From positions 1-37,669 of the forward strand of contig JAHITY010000053.1 of the NCBI GenBank assembly GCA_018817165.1: a stretch of DNA of 37,669 nucleotides. The letters are read 5' to 3'. Positions 3,667 to 30,464 of the stretch are shown here, piece by piece (position 1 is the first letter of the stretch; every line of letters begins with the position of its first letter). The notes under the pieces were generated by a model. The model had not been told where the DNA came from, did no database searches, and was given only the letters and a program-made list of their open reading frames with translations. The stretch comes from Candidatus Omnitrophota bacterium. Lineage in GTDB: Bacteria > Omnitrophota > Gorgyraeia > B26-G9. The position numbers and the translations under genes were made by a program.

Positions 3667-6033
3667 TTAAATTGCAGAGTTGATAGCTGTCTGCGTCAAT
3701 AATTGCGGAGTTTTCGCATTTTGCAAGTCCGGCAGCTTAATTTCATTTACTTCCGTTACCTTTCGATTTGTTTTATTGCTGCGATTGTTTGTTAGAAATT
3801 CTACAATCTTAGCGTAAACGCGTGGATCAGTAGCGATTCCGACATGCCCTGAGGGAATTCCCCAGATATCGATTTTTTCTGAACTAACTAGATTCGCTGT
3901 ATATTTTGCTGCTTCGGGTAATACAATATGATCCTTTTCCGCTAAAAGGATCATTATTTCCTGGGTTATACTTTTAAGGTCAACTGTTCTCCCGAGGATA
4001 TGCAGTTTTCCTTTGGCTAAAAGACTTTTGTCGTAAACAAGATCAAGAATCTCTGCGTGTGCCGCTCCGGGGTTTTGGGCGCGTTCGTTCCAAGCAAGCA
4101 GAGGGTGTTCCGCGGGCCCGATTCCCTGCAACCAGCGCTGCATTAACTCAAACATACCCTGATTATCGTTTCCGCTAGGTTGGATGAAGCCAAAAGTACC
4201 GCGCAGATTCTTTTTCGGGAATATGCCTTTGTTTTCAGCAACGATAGCATAAGGATCAGCAGTATGTGCAATCGCATAGAGTAGTTGCTCATTAAGCTGT
4301 TTGGGGTCGGTTAATGAGTTTTCATCACCGCCTACTTTTGAAAGCATCGCGCTGGTCATTGGGATTAGGCGGTCAAAATATTCAGGATATAAAGATGCCA
4401 GGATCATCATCAGTGTTCCGCCGATACAGTAGCCTAAAACATCGATTTTTTCCTCTCCGGTCAATTTCCGAATGAGCAGAGTACTGTTCAGGAGTTCTTG
4501 GACATAATCATCGATATGCTGGGCATACTGTTTATTCTCCTGAGTGATTTCCTGCCAGTCTGTTACATATACTTCAAATCCTTGTTGAAGCAAATATTTT
4601 ATCATGCTTTTATTATGATCAGGATCAAGGTCAAATATTTCGTATTTGTTTATCCAGGAATAAGACAGGAAGATAGGTTTACTCCGGACCTGTTTATTTT
4701 TCGGCGCGTAACGGCGCAGTTTTAATATTGGGGATTCGTATACAACTTCGTTGGGGGTATTAGCAAGGTTTCCGCCTTGGCCGAAGGTAAACGGCTGTTC
4801 CGGGGCAGGGGACCTTTTTAGGGTTATATCAGTCATATCATTTATGAAATTATTCACTCCTTGCAGTCTGCTTATTGTTGTGTCAAAGGTTTGCTTGATA
4901 AGCTCATTGCAAAGGTTCAAGTAAGACATGCCGTTTGAAAACGGACTGCCAAATGATCCGATTTCCAGTACTGAACGATTAAAGCGCAAGAAAGAGTCAA
5001 AAGTTTTTTCCAATTGCTCGATGCTTAGATTGAAGTAAGATTGCGCTAACTGTTTTGATAAGTCTGCTTTAAACTTTTTGAAGGCGGCATCGTATAGCTT
5101 AGCATAAAAATCATATGGAAGCTCCTTTATCTTGGTGACTTCTTCAGAGTTTGCTGTTATCTGGCGCAGTTCAGGCTTGCTTCTTCTTTGCGGGACAAGG
5201 ATTCCTGATGATTCTCGGCTTTGCGCAATATCAATGCCGTAAGTGCGGGAAATCTCTGTTAAAATTGCGGTTAATTCTGTATTGTAACTTTCCGCGTTAT
5301 CAAAAAATGGTTCAAAAGAGATGTTTTTTTTCTTAAGATTTTTTTCTTTTGCCGCAATGGCAAATAGTTTCATTAACCTTGCCGCCGGCTGGATAATTTC
5401 GCGGAGTGCATTTTCAGCGACATTTCCGGCTTTGGCCGCGGCGAGTTTTTCAGCGATCTTTTCCTGCAGTGCTTGGGCAAGCCCGTAAGGAATATAAGCT
5501 TGTACCGGATAGATATGATCATAAAACGCTGTGCCGCCGGCTCCGACATAACCGACGAGTAGATGCTTTTCTTCTGCTGCGCTGAAAAGCAGCGGCTGAA
5601 TTTTAGCTTTATTGCTTTTAATCGCAAAAAAATTGGTGTTACTGATAATATCGGAAGAGTCTTTATCTTTTGTCTGCCTGTAAAAATCAGCGGTTATTTT
5701 TTGTAGATACTTTCCGGTCGGGAATTGACTGAAAGCAGTTGCCGAGTATGTATTGTTTTTATCGTCAAAAGCATCGGTGACGATTTTTGAAGCGGCGGCT
5801 AATTCGCTTGCGCCTATACCAAGGCCTATGGCTAAGTTGGAAAACCCGGCTGTCAAATCGGCAAAATTCAAAGTTATTTGGGCTGTGTCCATCTGGATTT
5901 TTGGAGAAAGGCAGGAAGTTTCCCGGGATGCGGTATCTGGTTGTGCTGAGGCAATAATAGTACAAAGAAAAGTTTGGGTACAGACAGCGGCAATAATCCG
6001 CAAAATTCTTGGAGAAGTGCTGGTAGAAAACAT
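3667..6033 (-). CDS. phaC: PHA synthase-like (PhaC) alpha/beta hydrolase with signal peptide and long N-terminal region
   Basis: The 788-aa product has a C-terminal half (about 390-760) matching class I-type polyhydroxyalkanoate synthases: a GGNLANTP / VVYESPILKLRRYAP entry, a WINKYEIFDL block, the modified lipase box GYCIGG with nucleophile Cys536, Asp701 in EKDHIV and His730 in GHVG. PhaC normally polymerises hydroxyacyl-CoA in the cytoplasm. Here the first 30 residues look like a Sec signal (IIAAVCTQTFLCTIIASA), followed by CLSP at 41-44, and a region of about 300 residues that I do not recognise precedes the catalytic part. I chose ATG 6033 because GGGAGGA sits 6-7 bases upstream and the signal peptide starts there; a longer frame to 6090 has no such site. 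The cofactor supply genes phaA and phaB are absent nearby. It may act outside the cytoplasm, perhaps as an acyltransferase or esterase, rather than in granule formation. Confidence 0.8.
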   Translation of the reverse strand: MFSTSTSPRILRIIAAVCTQTFLCTIIASAQPDTASRETSCLSPKIQMDTAQITLNFADLTAGFSNLAIGLGIGASELAAASKIVTDAFDDKNNTYSATAFSQFPTGKYLQKITADFYRQTKDKDSSDIISNTNFFAIKSNKAKIQPLLFSAAEEKHLLVGYVGAGGTAFYDHIYPVQAYIPYGLAQALQEKIAEKLAAAKAGNVAENALREIIQPAARLMKLFAIAAKEKNLKKKNISFEPFFDNAESYNTELTAILTEISRTYGIDIAQSRESSGILVPQRRSKPELRQITANSEEVTKIKELPYDFYAKLYDAAFKKFKADLSKQLAQSYFNLSIEQLEKTFDSFLRFNRSVLEIGSFGSPFSNGMSYLNLCNELIKQTFDTTISRLQGVNNFINDMTDITLKRSPAPEQPFTFGQGGNLANTPNEVVYESPILKLRRYAPKNKQVRSKPIFLSYSWINKYEIFDLDPDHNKSMIKYLLQQGFEVYVTDWQEITQENKQYAQHIDDYVQELLNSTLLIRKLTGEEKIDVLGYCIGGTLMMILASLYPEYFDRLIPMTSAMLSKVGGDENSLTDPKQLNEQLLYAIAHTADPYAIVAENKGIFPKKNLRGTFGFIQPSGNDNQGMFELMQRWLQGIGPAEHPLLAWNERAQNPGAAHAEILDLVYDKSLLAKGKLHILGRTVDLKSITQEIMILLAEKDHIVLPEAAKYTANLVSSEKIDIWGIPSGHVGIATDPRVYAKIVEFLTNNRSNKTNRKVTEVNEIKLPDLQNAKTPQLLTQTAINSAI

Positions 6034-6357
6034 AAAATTCCTCCCAAAGTAAGCTAAATGTAGATAGACAAAGACATGAAAGCGTACCACACCTTTGTTT
6101 ACTTTGCAATAGCAAGGGGGTGAAGTTTTTTGGATTAAAGCGGTCTGTTTCTGTAAGTATCCGCATCTGAGCCCTAATATTTTGAGGGTAATTTAGGTAT
6201 AATATATGCAATTTCATTGCTTTTTCCCTTATTTTTTGGTATAAATAATAATTACTATTAATAAAATTGTGGATAAATTGTGTAAAACTCATGGTTTTAG
6301 CCTTTATTTTGCACATAATTTTGCTGTTTTTCTGTATAATTTGGAGGCTGGAGCACC
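6034..6357. other. AT-rich divergent intergenic region
   Basis: This 324-base gap separates the divergent phaC-like and ABC-F genes. It is AT-rich and holds a perfect DnaA box (6268-6276), a small palindrome GCAATTTCATTGC (6209-6221) and two TATAAT hexamers on the plus strand (6198-6203, 6335-6340). On the minus strand TTGCAA-17-TACGCT, starting near 6109, could drive the phaC-like gene, but the -10 match is poor. No convincing gene is seen in it. Confidence 0.5.
6268..6276 (-). promoter_or_regulatory. Consensus DnaA box
   Basis: TGTGGATAA on the plus strand is the complement of the consensus DnaA box TTATCCACA, 9 of 9. It is single here, in an AT-rich intergenic region, so it could be a regulatory site or chance. 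A second group lies at 19371-19390. Confidence 0.35.
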
Positions 6358-8262
6358 ATCGCATTAATTAGTTTAAAAGATATTTCATTGGCTTTTGGCG
6401 GGCCGCTTTTGTTCGAGCAGTTGAATATGCAGCTGGAACCCGGTGAGCGCGTGGCTTTGCTGGGCAGAAACGGGGTGGGCAAAACCACGCTGATGAAGGT
6501 TATGGCCGGACAGATCCCTGTGGACTTAGGAGAAATTGCTTATCAAAAAGGGGTTAAGCTCACCCATCTTCCCCAGGAAATACCCAGTGATGTTACTGGC
6601 TGTGTATTTGATATTGTGCTGGCTGGTTTGGGCGAACGCGCTCAAATGGTAAAAGAATATCATCATGTCAGCCACTTGCTGCATACTGAACAGTCAGATA
6701 AATTATTGCGCAGATTAGATGACCTGCAGCATCAAATGGATCATGCCAATGGCTGGGAGATCAACAATCAGGTTGAATACGCGATCAGCCAGGTTAAGAT
6801 CGATCCGGACAGTAATTTTGAAGAATTATCCGGCGGGCAAAAACGTAAAGTTTTATTAGCCAGAGCTCTGGTTTGCAATCCGGAGATTTTAATGCTCGAT
6901 GAGCCGACTAATCACTTGGACATTGAATCAATCACTTGGCTGGAAGAATTTTTAAAAGCTTATAAAGGCACTTTATTTTTTGTTACCCATGATCGGGCAT
7001 TTATGAATAATCTGGCTACCCGGATTGTTGAGCTTGATCAAGGCCGGATATTCAGCTGGACTTGCGGGTATGATCTTTTTTTAGAACGCAAAGCCCAGGC
7101 TTTGGAAACCGAAGCAATGCAGCAGTTTCATTTTGAAAAAAAACTTGCCAAAGAAGAAGTTTGGGTGCGGCAGGGGGTTAAGGCCCGCCGGACGAGAGAT
7201 GAAGGCCGGGTCAAAGCCTTGGAAGCGATGCGCAAAGAAAAGCAAGCGCAGCGCCAGGCAATTGGCCAGGTTAAAATGCGCGCGGAAGAATCAGAGCGTT
7301 CAGGAAATCTGGTAATCAAAGCGAATAATCTCGGCTTTGCCTATGACAATAAATGTTTGGTCAAAGATTTTTCCACGCGGATCATGCGGGGTGATAAAAT
7401 CGGGGTAATTGGCCCGAATGGTTCAGGTAAAACCACTTTATTGCGCATCTTGGTCGGACAATTAGCGCCGCAGCAAGGTGAAGTGAAAATCGGTACGAAA
7501 ATTGATTTATTATATTATGATCAGCTCAGAGAAGCTTTAGACGAAGATAAAAGTGTAAAAGAAAATATCAGCGGTGACGCGGATATGATTACGGTTAACG
7601 GTAAACCAAAACACGTGATCAGCTATTTGCAGGATTTTCTGTTTTCCCCGCAAAGAGCGCAGACTCCGGTGCGAGTTTTATCCGGCGGAGAGCGGAATCG
7701 TTTATTATTAGCCCGTTTATTTACCAAGCCATCTAATGTTTTAATCATGGATGAACCAACCAATGATCTGGATATTGAAACTCTGGAATTATTGGAAGAT
7801 CTGCTGGTTAAATATTCCGGCACATTATTCTTAGTCAGCCATGACCGGGTATTTTTAAATAATATCGCGACCTCGACGATTGTAATGGAAGGCTATGGCC
7901 GGATTAATGAATATCCCGGAGGATATGATGATTGGCTGAATCAGCGCCAGAAAAAACAAAACCAACACTTGGCCAAACCTAAACCAGCGGCAAGTCAGGA
8001 AAAAAATAAATTGGATAAAAATCCTAAACCAAAAAAACTCTCGTTCAAACAGGCAAAGGAATTACAAGAATTACCGCTGCGGATCGAACAGCTGGAAGCA
8101 GAGCAGAAACAGATTTTTAATACCATGGCTCAACCGGATCTGTATAAAAAAGAGCCAGGCAAAATTAAAATATTAGAACAAAGAGCGGAGCAGATAAAGC
8201 AGGAATTGCCGGAAATGTATAAACGCTGGGAAGAATTAGAATTAATTAAAGGTGAGGAATAG
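6358..8262 (+). CDS. uup: ABC-F ATPase, Uup type, apparently starting at ATC
   Basis: This soluble ATPase has two nucleotide-binding domains. The first has Walker A GRNGVGKT (36-43), signature LSGGQKRK and Walker B LMLDEPTNHLD; the second has GPNGSGKT, LSGGERNR and LIMDEPTNDLD. They are joined by the basic ABC-F linker, and a C-terminal coiled coil (about 565-630) follows. ABC-F proteins act on the ribosome during stalled translation, and Uup is also linked to genome stability. No ATG, GTG, TTG or CTG lies in frame before TTG 6388, which would remove the first beta strand. The codons from 6358 read (ATC)ALISLKDISLAFGG, matching the usual MALISL opening, with GGAGG at 6343-6347 and GGAG at 6350-6353. 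I therefore place the start at ATC. A TATAAT at 6335-6340 would give a very short leader. An ATG-to-ATC sequencing error is the main alternative. Confidence 0.88.
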   Translation: MALISLKDISLAFGGPLLFEQLNMQLEPGERVALLGRNGVGKTTLMKVMAGQIPVDLGEIAYQKGVKLTHLPQEIPSDVTGCVFDIVLAGLGERAQMVKEYHHVSHLLHTEQSDKLLRRLDDLQHQMDHANGWEINNQVEYAISQVKIDPDSNFEELSGGQKRKVLLARALVCNPEILMLDEPTNHLDIESITWLEEFLKAYKGTLFFVTHDRAFMNNLATRIVELDQGRIFSWTCGYDLFLERKAQALETEAMQQFHFEKKLAKEEVWVRQGVKARRTRDEGRVKALEAMRKEKQAQRQAIGQVKMRAEESERSGNLVIKANNLGFAYDNKCLVKDFSTRIMRGDKIGVIGPNGSGKTTLLRILVGQLAPQQGEVKIGTKIDLLYYDQLREALDEDKSVKENISGDADMITVNGKPKHVISYLQDFLFSPQRAQTPVRVLSGGERNRLLLARLFTKPSNVLIMDEPTNDLDIETLELLEDLLVKYSGTLFLVSHDRVFLNNIATSTIVMEGYGRINEYPGGYDDWLNQRQKKQNQHLAKPKPAASQEKNKLDKNPKPKKLSFKQAKELQELPLRIEQLEAEQKQIFNTMAQPDLYKKEPGKIKILEQRAEQIKQELPEMYKRWEELELIKGEE

Positions 8263-8354: not shown

Positions 8355-9236
8355 ATGAAAAAGCTGTTTTTCATATTAATTTTATTTGGGCTTTTAAATA
8401 ATGCAATTGTTTTCGGCGATATAATATATTTGCGAAATGGGCGGATGATTGAAGGTGAAATTGTTGAGCAAACCAATGAATTTGTAAAGATAAACTGTTT
8501 GAGTTTGGGGATGTATGCTAAGTATAAGAAAAGCGCAATCGCAAAAATAGTTTTAGAAACCGCAAAATCTGAAACAAATAAAAACTCCCCAGATGGATTA
8601 AAGTCAGGAGTTGAACAACCCGCCAGCCGCGAAGTCCTTAAGTCTCAAATCATCAAACAAGAAGGCTATTTGTTATATCTTCCGCAAGGGCTTGTCGCTG
8701 GGAAAGTTTATCCTTTGATTGTCGCTTTTGATCCTGGAGCCAATGCGCAGGCAATGATTAATTTTTGGAAACCCATAGCCGATGAAAAAAAATTGATTGT
8801 TTACGCTTCGAAAAAGTTTCGCAATGGCCAGAACGATTGGTTTAAATCGGAAGAAAAAATGATCGAAGCGGTAATTAAGTCATATCCGGTTAATCGCAAG
8901 CGGATAATAACCACGGGAATATCCGGAGGAGGCATGGGCGCGCATATGGTTGCCTATTATCGGCCGGATTTGGTTTTAGCGGTGATTAGCACTGTTGGAC
9001 GGATAAATCCTTTTTTTAAAACAGACCCCAAAGCAAAACAAGATTATCCGCAAAGTAAAATAGCGGTATTTCTTTCCGGGACTAATGACTTTAATGCCGC
9101 GGAAATGCGCAAAGATCAGCAGTTTCTTTCCCAGCTTTATTGGCAGACAAAATGGCTGGAATTTAAAGGCGGCCATGAAATGGCGCCGCAGGAACTCTAC
9201 AAACAGGCCCTATCCTGGATAGAGCAATACTGGTAA
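8355..9236 (+). CDS. Secreted alpha/beta-hydrolase esterase with N-terminal SH3-like domain
   Basis: The 293-aa product has a signal peptide (1-21), then a small beta domain (about 22-70) of the 'I.L.NG..IEG.(I/V)' kind often found on exported proteins. The esterase domain (about 97-293) has a nucleophile elbow GISGGG with Ser190, a likely acid Asp245 in GTNDFN and His274 in GGHEMAP. The fold resembles PHB-depolymerase and carboxylesterase families that use a peptidase-like GxSxGG site. It is likely periplasmic or extracellular. The substrate is unknown. The PHA-synthase-like gene close by makes a polyester or short acyl ester conceivable, which is inference only. Its 92-base gap from the ABC-F gene and weak ribosome-binding site give no sign of tight coupling. 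Confidence 0.8.
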   Translation: MKKLFFILILFGLLNNAIVFGDIIYLRNGRMIEGEIVEQTNEFVKINCLSLGMYAKYKKSAIAKIVLETAKSETNKNSPDGLKSGVEQPASREVLKSQIIKQEGYLLYLPQGLVAGKVYPLIVAFDPGANAQAMINFWKPIADEKKLIVYASKKFRNGQNDWFKSEEKMIEAVIKSYPVNRKRIITTGISGGGMGAHMVAYYRPDLVLAVISTVGRINPFFKTDPKAKQDYPQSKIAVFLSGTNDFNAAEMRKDQQFLSQLYWQTKWLEFKGGHEMAPQELYKQALSWIEQYW

Positions 9237-11312: not shown

Positions 11313-11845
11313 GTGGAAGAATTGTTGCCATCAGATATGCTACCGCGCTTTATCAGGTAGCGGTAGAGAAAAAAATGTTTGAAGCGATTGTCGGGGATCT
11401 GACAAGGCTTAATGAAATCATGGGTGTTGCGCTAATTAGGGAGTATTGTCTGAAAGCGCATGTTAATCAAGTTTTGGAAATGAAGTTTATAAATACAGCG
11501 TTTATTCCCTATGTAAGTCAGACCACTGGAGAGATGTTAAAAATCGCGGTGCGGAATGGCCGCTTAGCGGCATTGCCCTATTTGTTCGCGGCTTGGAAAA
11601 ACATAATCAATCAAGAATCCGGGATAGTGGAAGTTATGCTTGAGAGCGCTGATGAAGCTGAACAAAATATTCAGCAAATCATTGAAACAAAAATGGCCAA
11701 ACGTTTGGGAAAGAAAATTAAACTTAATAATATTGTTGTGCCAAAACTTCTCGGCGGGATCAGAATTTTATGGGACAACCACTTGATCGATTTGTCCGCG
11801 ATCGGAAGGTTAAAAATAATGCGGGCTTTATTTAAGGCTGTTTGA
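11309..11845 (+). CDS. atpH: ATP synthase F1 subunit delta
   Basis: The 178-aa product has the delta/OSCP start [14 protein letters not shown], a helical N-terminal domain that caps F1, and the C-terminal [22 protein letters not shown] block that contacts subunit b. I start it at ATG 11309, which overlaps the atpF stop; a longer frame from 11282 would run into atpF without need. It ends 14 bases before atpA. Confidence 0.93.
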
Positions 11846-11859
11846 TAAGGAAGGTTTTT

Positions 11860-14067
11860 ATGCGTGATCAGATAAAACCACAAGAGATTTTAGAAATTCT
11901 TAGACAGAAGATCGCGGATTTTGGCGCTGCTTCGCCAACCGAAACAGAAGTTGGCCGGATTATTCAGTCTGGCGACGGAATTGCCCGGGTTTGGGGTCTG
12001 AACAATATAATGTCCGGCGAATTAGTGGAAATTGAAACCCCTGGTGAGAAGCAAGTTCGCGGCATGGTGATGAATCTTGAAGAAGAAACTGTAGGGATTA
12101 TTTTATTTTCAGATTATGAATTAGTCAAAGAAGGCTGTTTGGTCAGACGCACGAAACGGATAGCGGAAGTGCCTGTAGGGGAAAGTCTTTTAGGCCGGGT
12201 TGTGGATTCTCTGGGTAATCCGATTGATGGCAAAGGTCCGATCAAGGCTGAGGAATATCGGCGAGTGGAAGTAAAAGGTCCGGGAATAATTGATCGCCAG
12301 AATGTTTCGGAACCTTTGCATACTGGAATAAAAGCAATTGACGCGATGATCCCGATCGGCCGCGGACAGCGGGAACTTATTATCGGTGATCGCAAGACAG
12401 GTAAAACGACAATCGCGATCGACACGATCATTAATCAGAAAAATTCTCAAGGTAAAGATAAAGTATATTGTTTCTATGTGGCCATTGGCCAAAAACGTTC
12501 TTCAGTTGTCCAGCTGGTGGAAACATTAAGAAAGCACGGGGTTATGGAATGTACAACCGTGATCAGCGCTACAGCTTCTGATCCGGCGTCTTTGCAGTAT
12601 CTGGCGCCTTATGCCGCTACGGCGATGGCGGAATATTTTCGGGATCAAGGCAAGCATGCTTTGATTATTTTTGACGATTTGACCAAACATGCTCAGGCTT
12701 ATCGGGAATTATCCTTGCTCATGCGCCGTTCCCCGGGACGGGAAGCTTATCCCGGCGATATTTTTTATCTCCACTCTCGGCTTTTAGAAAGAGCGGCAAA
12801 AATGAGCGCTGCCAAAGGCGGCGGTTCTTTGACCGCGCTGCCGATCGTGGAAACTCAGGAAGGGGATGTTTCGGCTTATATTCCGACAAATGTTATCTCA
12901 ATCACCGACGGACAGATATTTCTTGAATCTAATTTGTTTAATTCCGGATTACGTCCGGCAATTAATGTCGGCATTTCGGTTTCCCGCGTTGGCGGTGACG
13001 CTCAAATTAAAATTGTCAAACAAACCGTTGGTCCTTTGCGGATTCATCTGGCGCAGTTTCGTGAATTAGCCGCGTTTATGCAGTTTTCTTCCGACCTTGA
13101 TCCCGCGACGAAAAAACAGCTGGAAAGAGGTAAGCGTTTGATTGAAATCCTCAAACAGCCGCAGTACGCGCCGATTGATATTTATAAACAGGTGATGATT
13201 TTAAAAGCCGGGGTTTCCGGCAGGCTGGATAAATATCCCACAGACAAGCTTTTGCATTACCAAAAAGAGTTGTTTGCTTTTCTCGATACACAAGCCGTTG
13301 AATTTATGGAAAAACTGCGTAAAGCCGTCAGCTTTGATGATAAATTAGAAGCTGAGACAATTAATATTTTTGAAACATTTGAAAAGGACTTTAATCCGGA
13401 CATCGCGGAAAGCAATGTTGATTCCGGTTATGGGATAAACTTGGCAATGGCCTTGACTCATCCGGCATCGCGGATTAATCGGGAAATGTTGAAATTGGTT
13501 GAACAGATCGCGTCATATGACCTGGGAGATGCTTCTTTAGAGCAAGAATTGGAAGGAATTATTAATGGCAAAGAGCTTGCTGAAGAGCAAAGGGTGCAAA
13601 AACTGGTTGAATCTTGTGAGATGATTGATTGGGAAAAATCAAATCAAATGCCGGCGGTTTTCAAAAAAGCAGCGGAATTAATCGCCACTAAATTCAAAGA
13701 TAGCAACAGCCAGGGGATATATGATAAGCTGATCGAGCGCGAGAAATCAAGTTCGACAGCACTTACTCCCTTCTTTGCTTTACCGCATATTATTGTCGAA
13801 GGAACAGAAAAATTTGAGATGGTGATTGTCCGTTCGCGAAAAGGCATATTCTTTTCTGACGTTATGCCCAAAGTCCATGCGATGTTTTTTCTTGTCGGAT
13901 CAATGGATGAACGGCATTTTCACTTGGTTGTTTTGGCGGCTTTAGCTGGACTTGTCCAGCAGTCGGAATTTGAAGATACTTGGTTGAATACGCGTAAGTT
14001 AAAACAATTGCGGCTAAATTTACTGAACATGCTAAAAGATAAGGACGAGTCAGAAGAAAATGGCTAA
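11860..14067 (+). CDS. atpA: ATP synthase F1 subunit alpha fused to a C-terminal PTS EIIA (PtsN-type) domain
   Basis: The product is 735 aa, while alpha subunits are about 500-515. Residues 1 to about 510 form a complete alpha subunit: Walker A GDRKTGKT (176-183), the SVVQLVETL and [19 protein letters not shown] blocks and the C-terminal helical domain. After a linker (about 515-590), residues about 595-728 match EIIA domains of the fructose/PtsN class: a helical lead-in, [20 protein letters not shown] with the phosphorylatable His643, then the [25 protein letters not shown] strand-helix block. Stop codons and frame are continuous, so this is a real fusion and not a frameshift. ATG 11860 is preceded by AAGGAAGG. 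Its last codons overlap atpG by 8 bases. In the assembled enzyme three EIIA domains would surround F1, which suggests control by PTS phosphorylation or a purely structural role. The domain calls are firm; the regulatory idea is inference. Confidence 0.95.
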
Positions 14068-16790: not shown

Positions 16791-18800
16791 ATGCGGGGTT
16801 TTAAATCAAAAAGGATTAATTGCCGGATATTGGTTGGGGCGGTGATTGTTGGTTTGGTGATGCCGCCGATAACTGGGTTTGCCGGCAAAGAAAATACGGC
16901 TAAAAACGCAATGCTTTCGCCCTCACTTTCTCTGGGGGCAGATACTTTTCAATATTTTTTTATCGATTCCCGCGCAGCGCCGCAAGCCAGCAATGCTTTG
17001 CGCAATGATCCTGCTTTTGCTGAATATCAGAGCTTGGTCAGGGTTAATGATTCTTCGATTGAAGTCAAACAATCCCAAGGAGTAAGCGCCTATTTTCTCG
17101 AGCAAGTGTTTAAGCGTGTATTAGTCCAGTTAAATAAACGTAAGGTTTGGAGCGATTTTCCCAGCTTTTACGCAAAAAATGAGTTTGTGTTTGGGTTTAA
17201 AGCCGGACAAAAGGAATTATATATTATTAATCAAGATACAAAAATAATCAGCCTGCCCGCTTCTTTGCTGAATAATTTTTCCGCGCTTTTATTTACGCTG
17301 CGCCATGTTATTCAACAATATAATAATCCTCAGATAAGTCAAGATAAGGTCTTGATCTCGGATGCTTTTTTCTTTATGAATTGTTTTGATTATGAACGCA
17401 GTGAAATTCTGCAATGGCCGGAATTAGCTTTATATGAAAACAGAAAATTGCTCAGGGAACTGCAGCAAGCTATCGCGGAAAATAATTTTTCACAGCTTAA
17501 TAAATTGCTGTTTAATAAATCTTTAACCAAGCAAACCAATAGAGAATTAAAAAAAGTATTTTCTAGCCTTTGCCATGATTTAAAAGATGTGTCGATTTCC
17601 CAGGGGCGGTTACAAAGTTTTGTTTTGCTGCTTTGGGAGATTAGCAACGCGAACAAAAAGCAGGCCAAGAAAACTTTTTATAATTTGATTTATGGTTTAT
17701 CAAGCATTCCCGCTTGGAGTAAATTAGTCAAAGAAGCCAGCCCGGGAGTTTTTATTACAAAGCTTGATCAGCTATTGGCGGAGTCTTATTTTGGAATGCA
17801 TCACACTAATTCTCAAGTCAAAGCCTTGCTGAGTAATACTGTGCTGGAGACATTGTTTTATTTTAAACAAATAGAAAATCGAGCGGAACAGTTTAGAGAC
17901 GGCGGCAAAGAGTCTGAATTCAGGCAGAAACGTGCGGCGCATGTTCGGGGTATTTTAGGGGAAATATCGGGATTGCATAAGTATACTTTTGTGTTTAAAG
18001 ACACTGTAATGCTCCTGGATAAGCATCCGCAGATTGATAGTCGCAATAAAATTTATGTTTCCCGGCTGAATACTGGCGAGGATTTTGAAAAAGAGTGTGA
18101 CGCGCATACTGCCGGAACAATGCTTGAATTTAAATACTCAGCGCATTATCGGGATATTTACGCGCAGCTTTTTGGCTTTATGAAACAAGGCTCAGTGTTT
18201 AGCCTGCTTTTAAACGCTCATCAGAAAAAAGCTTTAAGTTTGCAATCCAGGGATAATCCCAAGTTAAATAGCAGTGATCGAGAATTGACAAATGTGAAAA
18301 ATGTGGTTTATTTCGCGGAAAATGATATTAATGGGTTTGCTCAGCATGTGTCTGGTTTTGTCCAGGCAAATAAAGACTCTTTTGATCCCAAGACCGGGCG
18401 CTCGCTTGAAGCCAGAACTCTTTGGAATGCCGATGGTTTTAATTGCCGATTGAATTTAAAGGAGTTTGAGATACTTGTGCTTGATCCTGATTTTATCCAA
18501 GGACTTTTATCAGAAACTCAGGTTCTTCAGGGAATGAGTGAAGAGTTTAAAACCAAGTATTTTGAGAATTTGAGAAACTACTCTGAGGCGGTTTTTTCAG
18601 AGATGATCAAGATATATCAGAAAACTGGGTTTGATATTTATATCAGCATCAGTAATCCCAAGCTGAGAACTCTGGATAAAAGCTTTGTTAGTGGGATCAA
18701 GCTGGCTGATGATATTAAAAGCAGCAGAAAAAACATACATCAGTTTTCTGCGGACCATTCCCGGATCGAACATCTATTTTTCACCGAAACCGCAATCTAA
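16791..18800 (+). CDS. Exported protein with [M/C]LSP motif and a PD-(D/E)XK nuclease-like domain
   Basis: The 669-aa product has a basic start, a hydrophobic signal (about 12-31) and MLSPSLSL at 41-48, the same position as CLSPKIQM in the phaC-like protein at 3667-6033. Most of it is helical and not recognised. In the middle the order GEISG (Glu391), ECDAHTAG (Asp437), LEFKYS (Glu446-x-Lys448) and then YAQLFGFM looks like the E...D...ExK core of PD-(D/E)XK nucleases, with a following Gln-containing helix. This is motif reading only; no fold search was possible. If right, an exported protein with a nuclease core resembles a toxin or effector. No clear immunity gene follows; the next ORF is a 51-aa zinc ribbon. 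It has its own promoter and no tight neighbours. The start has only a weak ribosome-binding site (GAGATA). Confidence 0.82.
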   Translation: MRGFKSKRINCRILVGAVIVGLVMPPITGFAGKENTAKNAMLSPSLSLGADTFQYFFIDSRAAPQASNALRNDPAFAEYQSLVRVNDSSIEVKQSQGVSAYFLEQVFKRVLVQLNKRKVWSDFPSFYAKNEFVFGFKAGQKELYIINQDTKIISLPASLLNNFSALLFTLRHVIQQYNNPQISQDKVLISDAFFFMNCFDYERSEILQWPELALYENRKLLRELQQAIAENNFSQLNKLLFNKSLTKQTNRELKKVFSSLCHDLKDVSISQGRLQSFVLLLWEISNANKKQAKKTFYNLIYGLSSIPAWSKLVKEASPGVFITKLDQLLAESYFGMHHTNSQVKALLSNTVLETLFYFKQIENRAEQFRDGGKESEFRQKRAAHVRGILGEISGLHKYTFVFKDTVMLLDKHPQIDSRNKIYVSRLNTGEDFEKECDAHTAGTMLEFKYSAHYRDIYAQLFGFMKQGSVFSLLLNAHQKKALSLQSRDNPKLNSSDRELTNVKNVVYFAENDINGFAQHVSGFVQANKDSFDPKTGRSLEARTLWNADGFNCRLNLKEFEILVLDPDFIQGLLSETQVLQGMSEEFKTKYFENLRNYSEAVFSEMIKIYQKTGFDIYISISNPKLRTLDKSFVSGIKLADDIKSSRKNIHQFSADHSRIEHLFFTETAI

Positions 18801-27047: not shown

Positions 27048-30000
27048 ATGAAAACCAAAAACCTGGATGCTTCTTTTAAGTCGCTTTTAGGCACACAGTT
27101 CTTGGGCGCGTTTAATGATAATGCTTTTAAAATAATTATTTCTTTACTGGGCATACAGTTAATCAGCTCGGCTCGTCAGTCCGCGGCTTTTGTGAGTATT
27201 ATTGGGGCTTTGTTTGTGATTCCTTTTATTATATTTTCTCCGCTTGCCGGCTACTTAGCTGACCGCTACCGTAAACGGAATATTATTGTGATAATGAAAA
27301 TAGCGGAACTGTTAATAATGCTATTGGGTTTATGGGGATTACTGACTCATAATTTAGTTTTTCTTTGCGCGATTCTTTTTCTCATGGCGGCGCAGAGTGC
27401 TTTTTTTAGCCCGGCGAAATATGGGATCTTGCCGGAGATTTTAAGCGAAGCCGAGATTTCCCGCGGCAACGGATATCTCCAGATGTTTACCTTTAGCGCG
27501 ATAATTTTAGGCAGTGCTTTTGGCGGGAAGATCAAACAAGCTTTTGATCCAAACATTTGGATGGTTTCAATTATTTTAATTGCTCTGTCTATGCTCGGCT
27601 TATGGTTTTCCAGCCAAATGGCCAAAGGGGTCGCGGCCAGACCAAATGCCCAATTCAAGCTTAATGGCTTTAAGCGCAGCTTAGAGATAATAAAAATAAT
27701 CCACCGCAACAAGCCCTTGTTCTTATCTTTATGCGCGATAAGTTATTTTTGGTTTTTAGGCGCGGTTTTTCAAATGAATATCTTGCTTTACGCCAAGCAG
27801 GTATTGTCCACGGGAGATTCGAATACCGGGATATTATTGGCCATGGTTGCTTTGGGCATAGGCATCGGCAGTATTTTAGCCGGCAGACTTTCTGAAGGTC
27901 AGATTGAATTTGGGCTTGTTCCCTTAGGCGCTATTGGGCTGACAATATTTTGTTCGATCTTAGGTATCTCAGGCTTAACTTATTTTCAGGTATCAATAAT
28001 CTTGTTTTTGTTGGGAGTTTCCGCGGGATTTTACACTGTTCCTTTAAATGCCTATTTTCAAACTAATTGTCCGAAAGAAGAGCGGGGAGAATTTCTCGGA
28101 GCAATGAATATTATTACGGCTTTTGCCACATTGTCCGGTTCTTTATTTATTTGGCTGGTAGGGGTTAAATTCGCGGCAACGCCCGGACAAACCTTTTTAA
28201 CTTTAGGCGCTTTGTCGGTTATGGCAACGATATATATATTAAAAACATTGCCCACGGCTTTTGTCCGCTTGGTTAACTGGATCGTTACCCATACTTTGTA
28301 CCGTCTAAACATTGAGGGGTTTGAAAATGTTCCGGAACAAGGCGGCGCGCTTTTAATTTGTAATCATGTTTCCTATATTGATGCCATGGTTGCTTTGGCA
28401 GCTTTAAAACGTCCGGTAAGATTTATTATGTACCGGAAAATTTATAATCTGCCTTTTTTACATCAGCTGTGTAAGATCATGCGGGTTATTCCCATAGATT
28501 ATCAAGATGGCCCCAAGGCAATTGTGCGTTCTTTGCAGCAAGCGCGGGCAGCGATTGAACAAGGCGATTTGGTCTGCATCTTTCCCGAAGGAGGGCTTAC
28601 GCGCACCGGCAATCTGCTGCCATTTAACCGGGGATTTGAAAAGATCATGCAGGGCCTAAGCGCTCCGATTATTCCAATGTATCTGGATAATATTTGGGGA
28701 AGTATTTTTAGTTTTCATGATGGGAAATATTTTTGGAAATTGCCGAGGAAAACACCGTATCCCTTGACTGTTGTTTTTGGCTCGGCAATGCCGGCAGAAT
28801 CAAAGGACTATCAGGTGCGAATTGCGGTCCAAGAGCTAGGTGCCTTTGCTTGTAAATTAAGAGGAATATATCGTAAAAAATTACATCTTTCATTTATCGA
28901 TATTGTTAAAAAACAACCTTTTAAATTTTGCATGGCTGATTCTACCGGCTTAAAGTTAACTTATTTAAAAACCCTGGCAGCAGTTTTACTGCTTAAAGGT
29001 AAGCTTTTTCCTGAAAAACGTCGGCCAATGGAAACCAATGAAATGATCGGCGTTCTTCTCCCGGCATCGTGCATGGGCTCAATTGTTAATGGTGCGGTCC
29101 TGTTTGCGGGCAAAGTTCCGGTGAATTTAAATTTTACATTGTCAGCTGAATCATTTAACTCATGTATAAAACAATGCCGCATGCAGAGCATTATTACTTC
29201 CCGGAAATTTTTAGAGAAAATAAATATCCCGGAAACAAAGCAAATGATCTGTTTAGAAGATATAAAACAAAATAGCGGTTTTTTAGATAAGCTAAGAGCA
29301 TTCTTCCAGAGTCTTATGCCGGGATTTTTAATCAGGCTGTTTTGCGTAGACGGAGACAAGCAAAATGTTGATGATCCGGCTACTGTTATTTTTTCCAGCG
29401 GTTCGACCGGCGAACCCAAGGGAATAATTCTTTCGCATGGCAATATTTTTTCTAATATCGAAGGGTTTTATCAGGTATTCAATGTCCAGCCTAATGATGT
29501 AGTTGTCGGGGCTTTGCCTTTCTTTCATTCATTTGGCTTTACCGCTACATTGTGTTTTCCTGTGGGAGCAGGCATTGGAGTGGTGTATCATTCTAATCCC
29601 ATGGACGCGGGGATAATCGGCAGTTTGACTGAAAAGTTTAAAGCGACAATTATCATGGGCACCCCGACTTTTTTAGCAGCTTATGTGCGCAAATGCAGTC
29701 AACAGCAATTTAAAACTTTGCGTTTTGCCGTAGTCGGCGCGGAAAAACTTAAGCAGCAGCTGGCGGAGGCTTTTAAGGAAAAATTTGGGATCACTCCGCT
29801 GGAAGGTTATGGAGCAACAGAGCTTTCGCCGATTGTCTCAATAGGTTACCCGGATTATGTTTCCAAGGATAAGCGGATCGTGCAGATTGGGAATAAATCC
29901 GGGACAGTGGGGCATCCTCTGCCAGGGATTGCGGCAAAGGTGGTTGATCCGGATACAGGGGAAATACTGCCTTATGACCAGGAAGGCTTATTGCTGATCA

Positions 30001-30464
30001 AGGGAGCAAATGTGATGAAGGGATATCTGAATAATCCGGAAAAAACTGATCAGGTGATTAAAGATGGCTGGTATATCACCGGAGATATTGCTATGATTGA
30101 TTCCGATGGGTTTATTCAGATAACTGATCGTTTGACCCGGTTTAGCAAAATTGGCGGAGAAATGGTGCCGCATATAAAAATAGAAGAAAGTATCCTGGAA
30201 ATTATCGGAACAGTTGATCAAGTCTGCGCGGTTACTTCTGTGGGCGATGATAAAAAAGGGGAGAAATTGGTAGTATTGCATTGTGCGGATATAAATATTG
30301 ATCATGTTTTACGCTGTTTGTCCGAAGCGGGTATGCCGAATTTATGGATACCCAAGAAAAATAGTTTTTATCGCGTTGAGAAAATTCCGCTATTGGGTAC
30401 AGGCAAGCTGGATTTAAAAGGGATAAAAACAATAGCGCAGGATTTATCAGAAAAGCAGGGATAA
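27048..30464 (+). CDS. aas: LplT-PlsC-acyl-ACP synthetase fusion (Aas type)
   Basis: The 1138-aa product joins three activities. Residues 1 to about 405 form a 12-helix MFS transporter resembling LplT (lysophospholipid flippase, FLGAFNDNAFK start). Residues about 415-600 are a PlsC acyltransferase with HVSYID (His440, Asp445) and FPEGGLTRTG (Glu514). Residues about 650-1138 are an adenylate-forming acyl-ACP synthetase with VIFSSGSTGEPKG (780-792), GYGATELSP and GWYITGDIA. Together they would flip lysophospholipid inward, activate a fatty acid and re-acylate the lipid at the inner membrane. Three-part fusions of this type are known in bacteria. The gene is 1 base after marR and 3 bases before a hydrolase gene. 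Confidence 0.93.
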   Translation: MKTKNLDASFKSLLGTQFLGAFNDNAFKIIISLLGIQLISSARQSAAFVSIIGALFVIPFIIFSPLAGYLADRYRKRNIIVIMKIAELLIMLLGLWGLLTHNLVFLCAILFLMAAQSAFFSPAKYGILPEILSEAEISRGNGYLQMFTFSAIILGSAFGGKIKQAFDPNIWMVSIILIALSMLGLWFSSQMAKGVAARPNAQFKLNGFKRSLEIIKIIHRNKPLFLSLCAISYFWFLGAVFQMNILLYAKQVLSTGDSNTGILLAMVALGIGIGSILAGRLSEGQIEFGLVPLGAIGLTIFCSILGISGLTYFQVSIILFLLGVSAGFYTVPLNAYFQTNCPKEERGEFLGAMNIITAFATLSGSLFIWLVGVKFAATPGQTFLTLGALSVMATIYILKTLPTAFVRLVNWIVTHTLYRLNIEGFENVPEQGGALLICNHVSYIDAMVALAALKRPVRFIMYRKIYNLPFLHQLCKIMRVIPIDYQDGPKAIVRSLQQARAAIEQGDLVCIFPEGGLTRTGNLLPFNRGFEKIMQGLSAPIIPMYLDNIWGSIFSFHDGKYFWKLPRKTPYPLTVVFGSAMPAESKDYQVRIAVQELGAFACKLRGIYRKKLHLSFIDIVKKQPFKFCMADSTGLKLTYLKTLAAVLLLKGKLFPEKRRPMETNEMIGVLLPASCMGSIVNGAVLFAGKVPVNLNFTLSAESFNSCIKQCRMQSIITSRKFLEKINIPETKQMICLEDIKQNSGFLDKLRAFFQSLMPGFLIRLFCVDGDKQNVDDPATVIFSSGSTGEPKGIILSHGNIFSNIEGFYQVFNVQPNDVVVGALPFFHSFGFTATLCFPVGAGIGVVYHSNPMDAGIIGSLTEKFKATIIMGTPTFLAAYVRKCSQQQFKTLRFAVVGAEKLKQQLAEAFKEKFGITPLEGYGATELSPIVSIGYPDYVSKDKRIVQIGNKSGTVGHPLPGIAAKVVDPDTGEILPYDQEGLLLIKGANVMKGYLNNPEKTDQVIKDGWYITGDIAMIDSDGFIQITDRLTRFSKIGGEMVPHIKIEESILEIIGTVDQVCAVTSVGDDKKGEKLVVLHCADINIDHVLRCLSEAGMPNLWIPKKNSFYRVEKIPLLGTGKLDLKGIKTIAQDLSEKQG

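Follow-up and report, generated by a model that had tools for sequence, protein, structure and literature searches.

A PhaC-like protein of an Omnitrophota bacterium bears the two terminal tags of a large class of putatively exported proteins

The gene P0001 from a Candidatus Omnitrophota bacterium encodes a divergent relative of the polyhydroxyalkanoate (PHA) synthase PhaC. Sequence comparison gives good support for placing its product in a large class of proteins that have only their two ends in common. We propose, with a probability of about 0.45, that the product is a probably active PhaC-type acyltransferase, exported as a passenger of this doubly tagged class and acting on acyl-CoA of another cell. 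PhaC is an intracellular enzyme that makes bioplastic, and Omnitrophota are widespread and uncultured.

Results

P0001 lies in a stretch of 37,669 nucleotides (contig JAHITY010000053.1, assembly GCA_018817165.1), which is called the window here. The initial annotation had given its coordinates correctly and had left the strand, which is minus, unstated. The features are as follows.

3667..6033 (-), whole gene of P0001 (788 amino acids plus stop); ATG at 6033, stop codon at 3667-3669
6040..6044 (-), ribosome-binding site GGAGG, six bases upstream of the ATG, read from the sequence
5944..6033 (-), signal-peptide-like segment, residues 1-30, from hydropathy and the shared profile
5890..5916 (-), N-terminal tag motif SCLSPKIQM, residues 40-48; L42 is invariant in an alignment of 38 tagged proteins
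5179..5856 (-), orphan region, residues 60-285, with no recognised relative
3769..5166 (-), PhaC-like acyltransferase module, residues 290-755, from family and structure alignments
4426..4428 (-), Cys536, the expected nucleophile, in GYCIGG, aligned to solved PhaC
3931..3933 (-), Asp701 of the triad, in EKDHIV, aligned to solved PhaC
3844..3846 (-), His730 of the triad, in SGHVG, aligned to solved PhaC
3670..3684 (-), C-terminal tag INSAI-COOH, residues 784-788, from comparison of C-termini in the class

The triad Cys536/Asp701/His730 had been described as complete. All three residues were found at these places, in register with solved PHA synthases and with a relative from another Omnitrophota genome (G233). 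P0001 aligned to the structures 5hz2 (E 8.8e-27) and 5xav with matching triad residues, to the family models TIGR01838 (E 1.9e-49) and TIGR01836 (E 8.5e-45), and to Pfam PhaC_N (PF07167; 62 bits, gathering score 23.7, profile positions 69-173 of 173). By these alignments, the PhaC homology is far above chance level. For each of the three PhaC classes, the score was well under the curated NCBIfam cut-off (168.5 of 622.65 bits for TIGR01838, and 110.5 of 855.4 and 153.3 of 365.3 bits for the others). Therefore, P0001 is a divergent relative of PhaC. Pfam families of the alpha/beta hydrolase fold matched P0001 as well, and the PHB depolymerase (PhaZ) model TIGR01849 gave 22.3 bits, below its cut-off of 300.75. 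P0001 shares the Cys-Asp-His triad, the GxCxGG box and homology over residues about 375-753 with class I PHA synthases (TIGR01838; 5hz2, 5t6o); it differs from them in its signal-like start, its LSP and [AS]I tags and its orphan region of 225 residues, and no pha genes were recognised in its window. The protein is probably a thioester-using acyltransferase, as judged from the aligned catalytic residues.

A region of 300 residues without known relatives had been reported at the N-terminus. The orphan stretch is present; its length is nearer 225 residues (about 60-285). The module of the G233 relative can be aligned, weakly, to residues 285-375, and the Pfam PhaC_N match begins at residue 376. 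With residues 60-285, neither Pfam nor NCBIfam gave a family match at E 1, and residues 60-290 had no match at E 5 in six-frame translations of the collected loci. A search with residues 30-306 gave nothing significant in 57 other related genomes; the best match (E 0.012) was rejected, as it falls in ordinary housekeeping genes, and a weak one was seen in G022 (E 0.15). An AlphaFold model from two sequences was uninformative (pLDDT 33).

When P0001 was used to search its own genome, the gene itself was the sole match. Among 384 Omnitrophota genomes drawn, four had a match: its own genome, two genomes at E 6-7e-4, and G233, in which the relative was strong (36% identity over P0001 residues 285-748, E 2.7e-64). 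The G233 relative is a module within a 30,185-amino-acid open frame on contig JAPLLX010000004.1, a Candidatus Omnitrophota metagenome-assembled genome from Lac Pavin that belongs to the same class as the window's genome. A search of a class draw of 384 genomes with the two-sequence alignment added only four weak partial matches, the best of them in G068 (E 1.4e-5 over 86 positions). The weak matches in G039, G040, G080, G088 and G307 were judged to be chance or general alpha/beta hydrolases. No PHA synthase above the TIGR01838 cut-off was present in a draw of 384 Omnitrophota genomes. GTDB contigs, which were searched with P0001 alone, and viral contigs gave no relative, and a plasmid collection gave ordinary PhaC in 208 records (24-27% identical among the ten matches listed).

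No phaA or phaB was recognised by eye among the open reading frames of the window. In the whole genome, the phaB-type model TIGR01829 gave three full-length acetoacetyl-CoA-reductase-like matches, all below the cut-off (best 261.8 of 302.1 bits). The initial annotation had also pointed to a secreted esterase nearby at 8355-9236 (+). This gene does have a signal-like start; no evidence for a link to P0001 was found, and its product ends in QYW, not [AS]I. It is on the strand opposite P0001, past gene 6388-8262, and matches an extracellular PHB depolymerase model weakly (38.4 bits, cut-off 150) and, at its N-terminus, a Leptospira-named domain model (33.5 bits, cut-off 43).

Two other genes of the window were noted in passing. 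At 11842-14067 (+), an ATP synthase alpha subunit has a PTS_EIIA_2 domain at its C-terminal end (residues 601-722, E 1.1e-17). Such a fusion is unusual and might connect ATP synthase with signalling by phosphotransfer. At 27048-30464 (+), a 1,138-amino-acid frame appears, by eye, to encode a single chain made up of a transporter, an acyltransferase and an AMP-forming acyl-activating enzyme, an arrangement that we take to resemble LplT-Aas.

The secretion signal of the initial annotation held up in that P0001 has a signal-like segment, hydrophobic over residues about 9-31 and supported by a crude rule and the shared profile. ASA followed by Q is a plausible cleavage point after this stretch, and CTQTFL within the segment resembles (L)IQ[AT]FL of other members of the tagged class. 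The class was surveyed in 741,486 bases, a non-random quarter of a single draft genome (completeness 93.45%, contamination 3.83%); signal peptides were detected by the crude rule, and members were first chosen by motif. In the first sample (436,860 bases, window included), a motif like [TC]LSPxLxI occurred soon after the predicted cut. It was found within 35 residues in 13 of 105 signal-peptide proteins (two of the 13 look false), as compared with a mean of 1.7 and a maximum of 6 in 500 shuffles, and with 7 of 837 internal windows. The second sample (304,626 bases) gave 7 of 68 (one looks false; shuffle mean 1.1, maximum 5). In G001, from the same genus, the count was 5 of 67 (shuffle mean 1.0), which is not beyond every shuffle because the shuffle maximum was 6. 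The motif starts at residue 30-52 in 65 of 67 pooled members, and in most aligned members the hydrophobic segment ends in a small-residue motif of the signal-peptidase type.

Pairwise BLAST among 17 members at E 0.01 found similarity confined to the first 90 residues, and P0001 showed none to the 16 others. Thus, its membership rests on the profile and the C-terminus. In a leave-one-out test on 698 N-termini, the first ~55 residues of P0001 scored 27.2 bits (E 1.1e-7) against the 28-member profile. Only two of 670 non-members scored higher (L088:3960 and L096:5534), and their sequences mark both as additional members. Low scores were seen for four of the 28 members (L035:5805, L035:7594, L054:4656 and L107; E 0.01-0.74, with 7-25 non-members higher). 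With the full tag model, 30 N-termini were below E 1e-6 (24 from this genome and 6 from G001), and 28 of these are its own training set. The window holds a second doubly tagged protein, for which four non-members scored higher in the leave-one-out test.

16791..18800 (+), second doubly tagged protein of the window, 669 amino acids; signal-like start, AMLSPSLSL, end TETAI-COOH, no Pfam family

Rough scaling from the sampled bases suggests about 100 tagged genes per genome, a rough figure because the sample was non-random.

The C-termini played no part in choosing the members. Nevertheless, an [AS]I end was found in 24 of 28 complete sampled members, whereas signal-peptide proteins without the N-terminal tag had it in 1 of 283 cases and untagged proteins in 10 of 636 (Fisher p about 1e-30, relatedness ignored). 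It was also present in 33 of 35 complete proteins fetched by the N-terminal tag. Among 63 pooled proteins, I was last in 59, A or S preceded it in 57, and I or V stood at -5 in 48; in the alignment of 38 tagged proteins the last residue was nearly invariant. For two of the four sampled exceptions (L052:5390 and L066:5554), the next frames end EQAI and ESAI, as if frameshifted; the other two are L045, which ends LI, and L105. P0001 ends INSAI and thus has both tags of the class. All eight complete proteins fetched from family f29 end AA or SA and the sole f37 protein ends AL, so the C-terminal motif differs by lineage.

The idea that the C-terminal tag mimics the cell's own tmRNA degradation tag was not supported, as the endings differ. 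In family f1, tag peptides from tmRNA end ALI (this genome, by eye), VLL (G001), VALR (G009) or VVLR (G003, by eye) and the tagged proteins mostly QAI or SAI; in f29, the peptides end ALAL (G075, G079, G039) or SAAL (G159) and the tagged proteins AA or SA. ARAGORN found no tmRNA in this genome, and G002 had none above the cut-off. As a separate observation, the tmRNA tag peptides of the lineages represented by L214 and L222-L228 end ALI, VLL, VALR, ALAL or SAAL, not LAA.

The tag model matched 132 of 285 genomes of the phylum at E <= 0.01; the single weak matches in many genomes elsewhere may be ordinary signal peptides. Nine genomes from the window's family had from 8 to at least 22 scored matches each; in this genome, a first look gave 98 candidates. 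This genome (G000) and G001 supplied the members from which the model was made, and both therefore match it by construction. Six tagged genes stand in a row in L069 (G000:C138, 540-18184) and likewise in L088 (G000:C129, from 1294), which shows that the class is partly clustered.

Judged from Pfam matches, many of the recognised passengers are of the cytosol type. The sampled members include PPDK/PEP-utilising (L035), starch-synthase (L075), SecA-like and HATPase (both L088) and HD (L069) domains and HEAT repeats (L065 and L102, marginal in L045), together with weak matches to DUF1152, TPR, phosphorylase and GH-E; many members have no Pfam match. The GH-E nuclease match (22.1 bits, cut-off 25) was the sole toxin-like hint noticed. 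For the set of 38 proteins, P0001 included, 25 of 62 Pfam families were listed. Among these matches, AAA_11/AAA_12 helicase-type, methyltransferase and HD domains occurred in three members each, cNMP-binding and HEAT in two each, and Carb_kinase, HTH_8, nucleotidyltransferase, APH, radical SAM, phosphoglucomutase and DUF218 in one each. The substrates of PPDK/PEP-utilising, starch-synthase, SecA, HATPase, helicase, methyltransferase, Carb_kinase and nucleotidyltransferase domains are cytoplasmic.

The 30,185-amino-acid frame from Lac Pavin is similarly rich in such domains.

G233:C4 209047..118490, 30,185-amino-acid frame with a PhaC module inside

Besides PhaC, Pfam recognised C39-peptidase, response-regulator, GGDEF, methyltransferase, M23, UDPGP, NAD-epimerase, starch-synthase, ARMT1, CofD, PEP-utilising, TPR, CheR, racemase and PCMT domains in the residues scanned (all but 29683-29869, 13016 and 19683), and many of these are of the cytosol type. 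The frame holds 27 S[SAT]SP motifs, several at apparent module borders, including both sides of the PhaC module; these linkers were not found in the 8,030-amino-acid frame of the P0001 genome. A tie of the Lac Pavin giant to the class by its N-terminus was rejected, as the tag model had no match there; the giant is thus joined to the class through passenger families only. The tag motif was present in 0 of 26 signal-peptide proteins within 220 kb around it. The 8,030-amino-acid frame (G000:C129 from 17151; L088, L191, L192) opens with a SecA-like domain with an intact GEGKT behind an N-terminal tag, and ends NNAI. The same genome has a SecA frame of normal size (955 amino acids), and SecA-like matches also lie within frames of 7,288 to 9,619 amino acids in G003, G016 and G001.

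Discussion

The shared ends and unrelated middles of the class mean that the ends behave like an address: at the N-terminus a signal peptide plus an LSP-type motif near residue 42, and at the C-terminus -[AS]I-COOH. We infer from these features that P0001 and the class are exported; the destination is a guess. A Sec-type signal would carry the protein over the inner membrane, and a putative sorting, processing or secretion machine would then read one or both tags. P0001 would work where acyl-CoA is found, most likely within a host or prey microbe's cytoplasm or where that cytoplasm has spilled out, and there it may polymerise, transfer or hydrolyse hydroxyacyl groups. Because cytosol-type passengers need cytoplasmic substrates, their export is sensible if they act in or on another cell. 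PMC10066038 proposes that most Omnitrophota are predators or parasites.

The suggestion of an exported enzyme with a non-standard role gains from the signal-like module, the aligned triad and the lack of a PHA synthase above the cut-off among the genomes drawn. Its simpler form, a plain periplasmic or surface hydrolase, leaves the cytosol-type passengers of the class unexplained. We consider it unlikely, in the same vein, that a PhaC fold in the periplasm or at the surface acts on lipid, polyester or cell-wall acyl groups, with the tags as a surface-display signal. The signal-like N-terminus, the alpha/beta hydrolase matches and PhaC class scores far under the cut-offs would suit such an envelope enzyme, as would the nearby gene at 8355-9236, which begins like a signal peptide and weakly matches a PHB depolymerase model. 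However, the nucleophile is Cys and the homology is PhaC-specific, not that of a Ser esterase, and an envelope-lipid role does not account for co-members of the ATP- or sugar-nucleotide-using type.

Two further explanations keep P0001 within its producer. If the hydrophobic segment, which was judged by the crude rule only, is an uncleaved membrane anchor, or if the protein enters a membrane-bound or enlarged periplasmic compartment, PhaC could use the producer's own metabolites. Cytosol-type passengers would be easily accounted for if substrates were supplied there, and a normal-size SecA accompanies the tagged one in this genome. We regard this as quite improbable, since a small-residue motif of the signal-peptidase type closes the segment in most aligned members; we know of no internal compartment in this Omnitrophota lineage. 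That P0001 is a normal, intracellular PHA synthase whose N-terminus is hydrophobic by chance or whose start is misassigned seems very improbable indeed. It would agree with the clear PhaC homology, with the triad and with the three acetoacetyl-CoA-reductase-like matches, each of them below the cut-off of that family. The ribosome-binding site at the annotated ATG, the shared N-terminal profile and the C-terminal tag speak against it, as do the failure to recognise phaA or phaB by eye in the window and the lack of a match above the TIGR01838 cut-off in a draw of 384 Omnitrophota genomes. We prefer an exported, doubly tagged acyltransferase that would act on acyl-CoA of another cell.

The type IX secretion CTD and PEP-CTERM/exosortase systems handle exported proteins that are sorted by the C-terminus. 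The Omnitrophota class is like them in joining a Sec-type signal and a C-terminal feature to many unrelated passengers. It differs in that the C-terminal tag is about six residues that end exactly at the carboxyl end, in the LSP motif after the signal, and in passengers that are often cytosol-type. Multi-effector and polymorphic toxin systems combine variable enzyme modules with constant delivery parts; compared by description only, the class resembles them in its variable enzyme modules behind constant parts.

The giant open reading frames of Omnitrophota offer another comparison. The available part of PMC10066038 describes a giant from Velamenicoccus, calls the roles of these frames poorly understood, reports few annotated domains in them and does not describe tags. 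The best relative of P0001 is a module of a 30,185-amino-acid Omnitrophota frame, and the 8,030-amino-acid SecA frame has an N-terminal tag and the end NNAI. P0001 itself is of ordinary size: its 2,367 bases are below the >20 kb criterion for giants. No description of two-ended tags was found among the papers listed by the literature searches, including the available parts of PMC10066038, PMC12057145 and PMC11573180, nor any of PhaC in Omnitrophota (preprints and most subscription papers were outside the scope). The two-ended tagged protein set is apparently undescribed.

It is possible, although doubtful, that each genome encodes about 100 proteins, including many cytosol-type enzymes, that are exported by an undescribed two-tag route and put to use within other microbial cells or against them. 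In that case, the PhaC-like enzyme would be a delivered metabolic effector that diverts acyl-CoA of the victim, and the giants a chained form of the repertoire. With a two-ended tag, the sequence by itself would point to a repertoire that is likely exported and whose proteins are of ordinary, expressible size. This makes two questions testable, namely what Omnitrophota export and where it goes. An exported PhaC, if true, would be a new use of a well-known enzyme.
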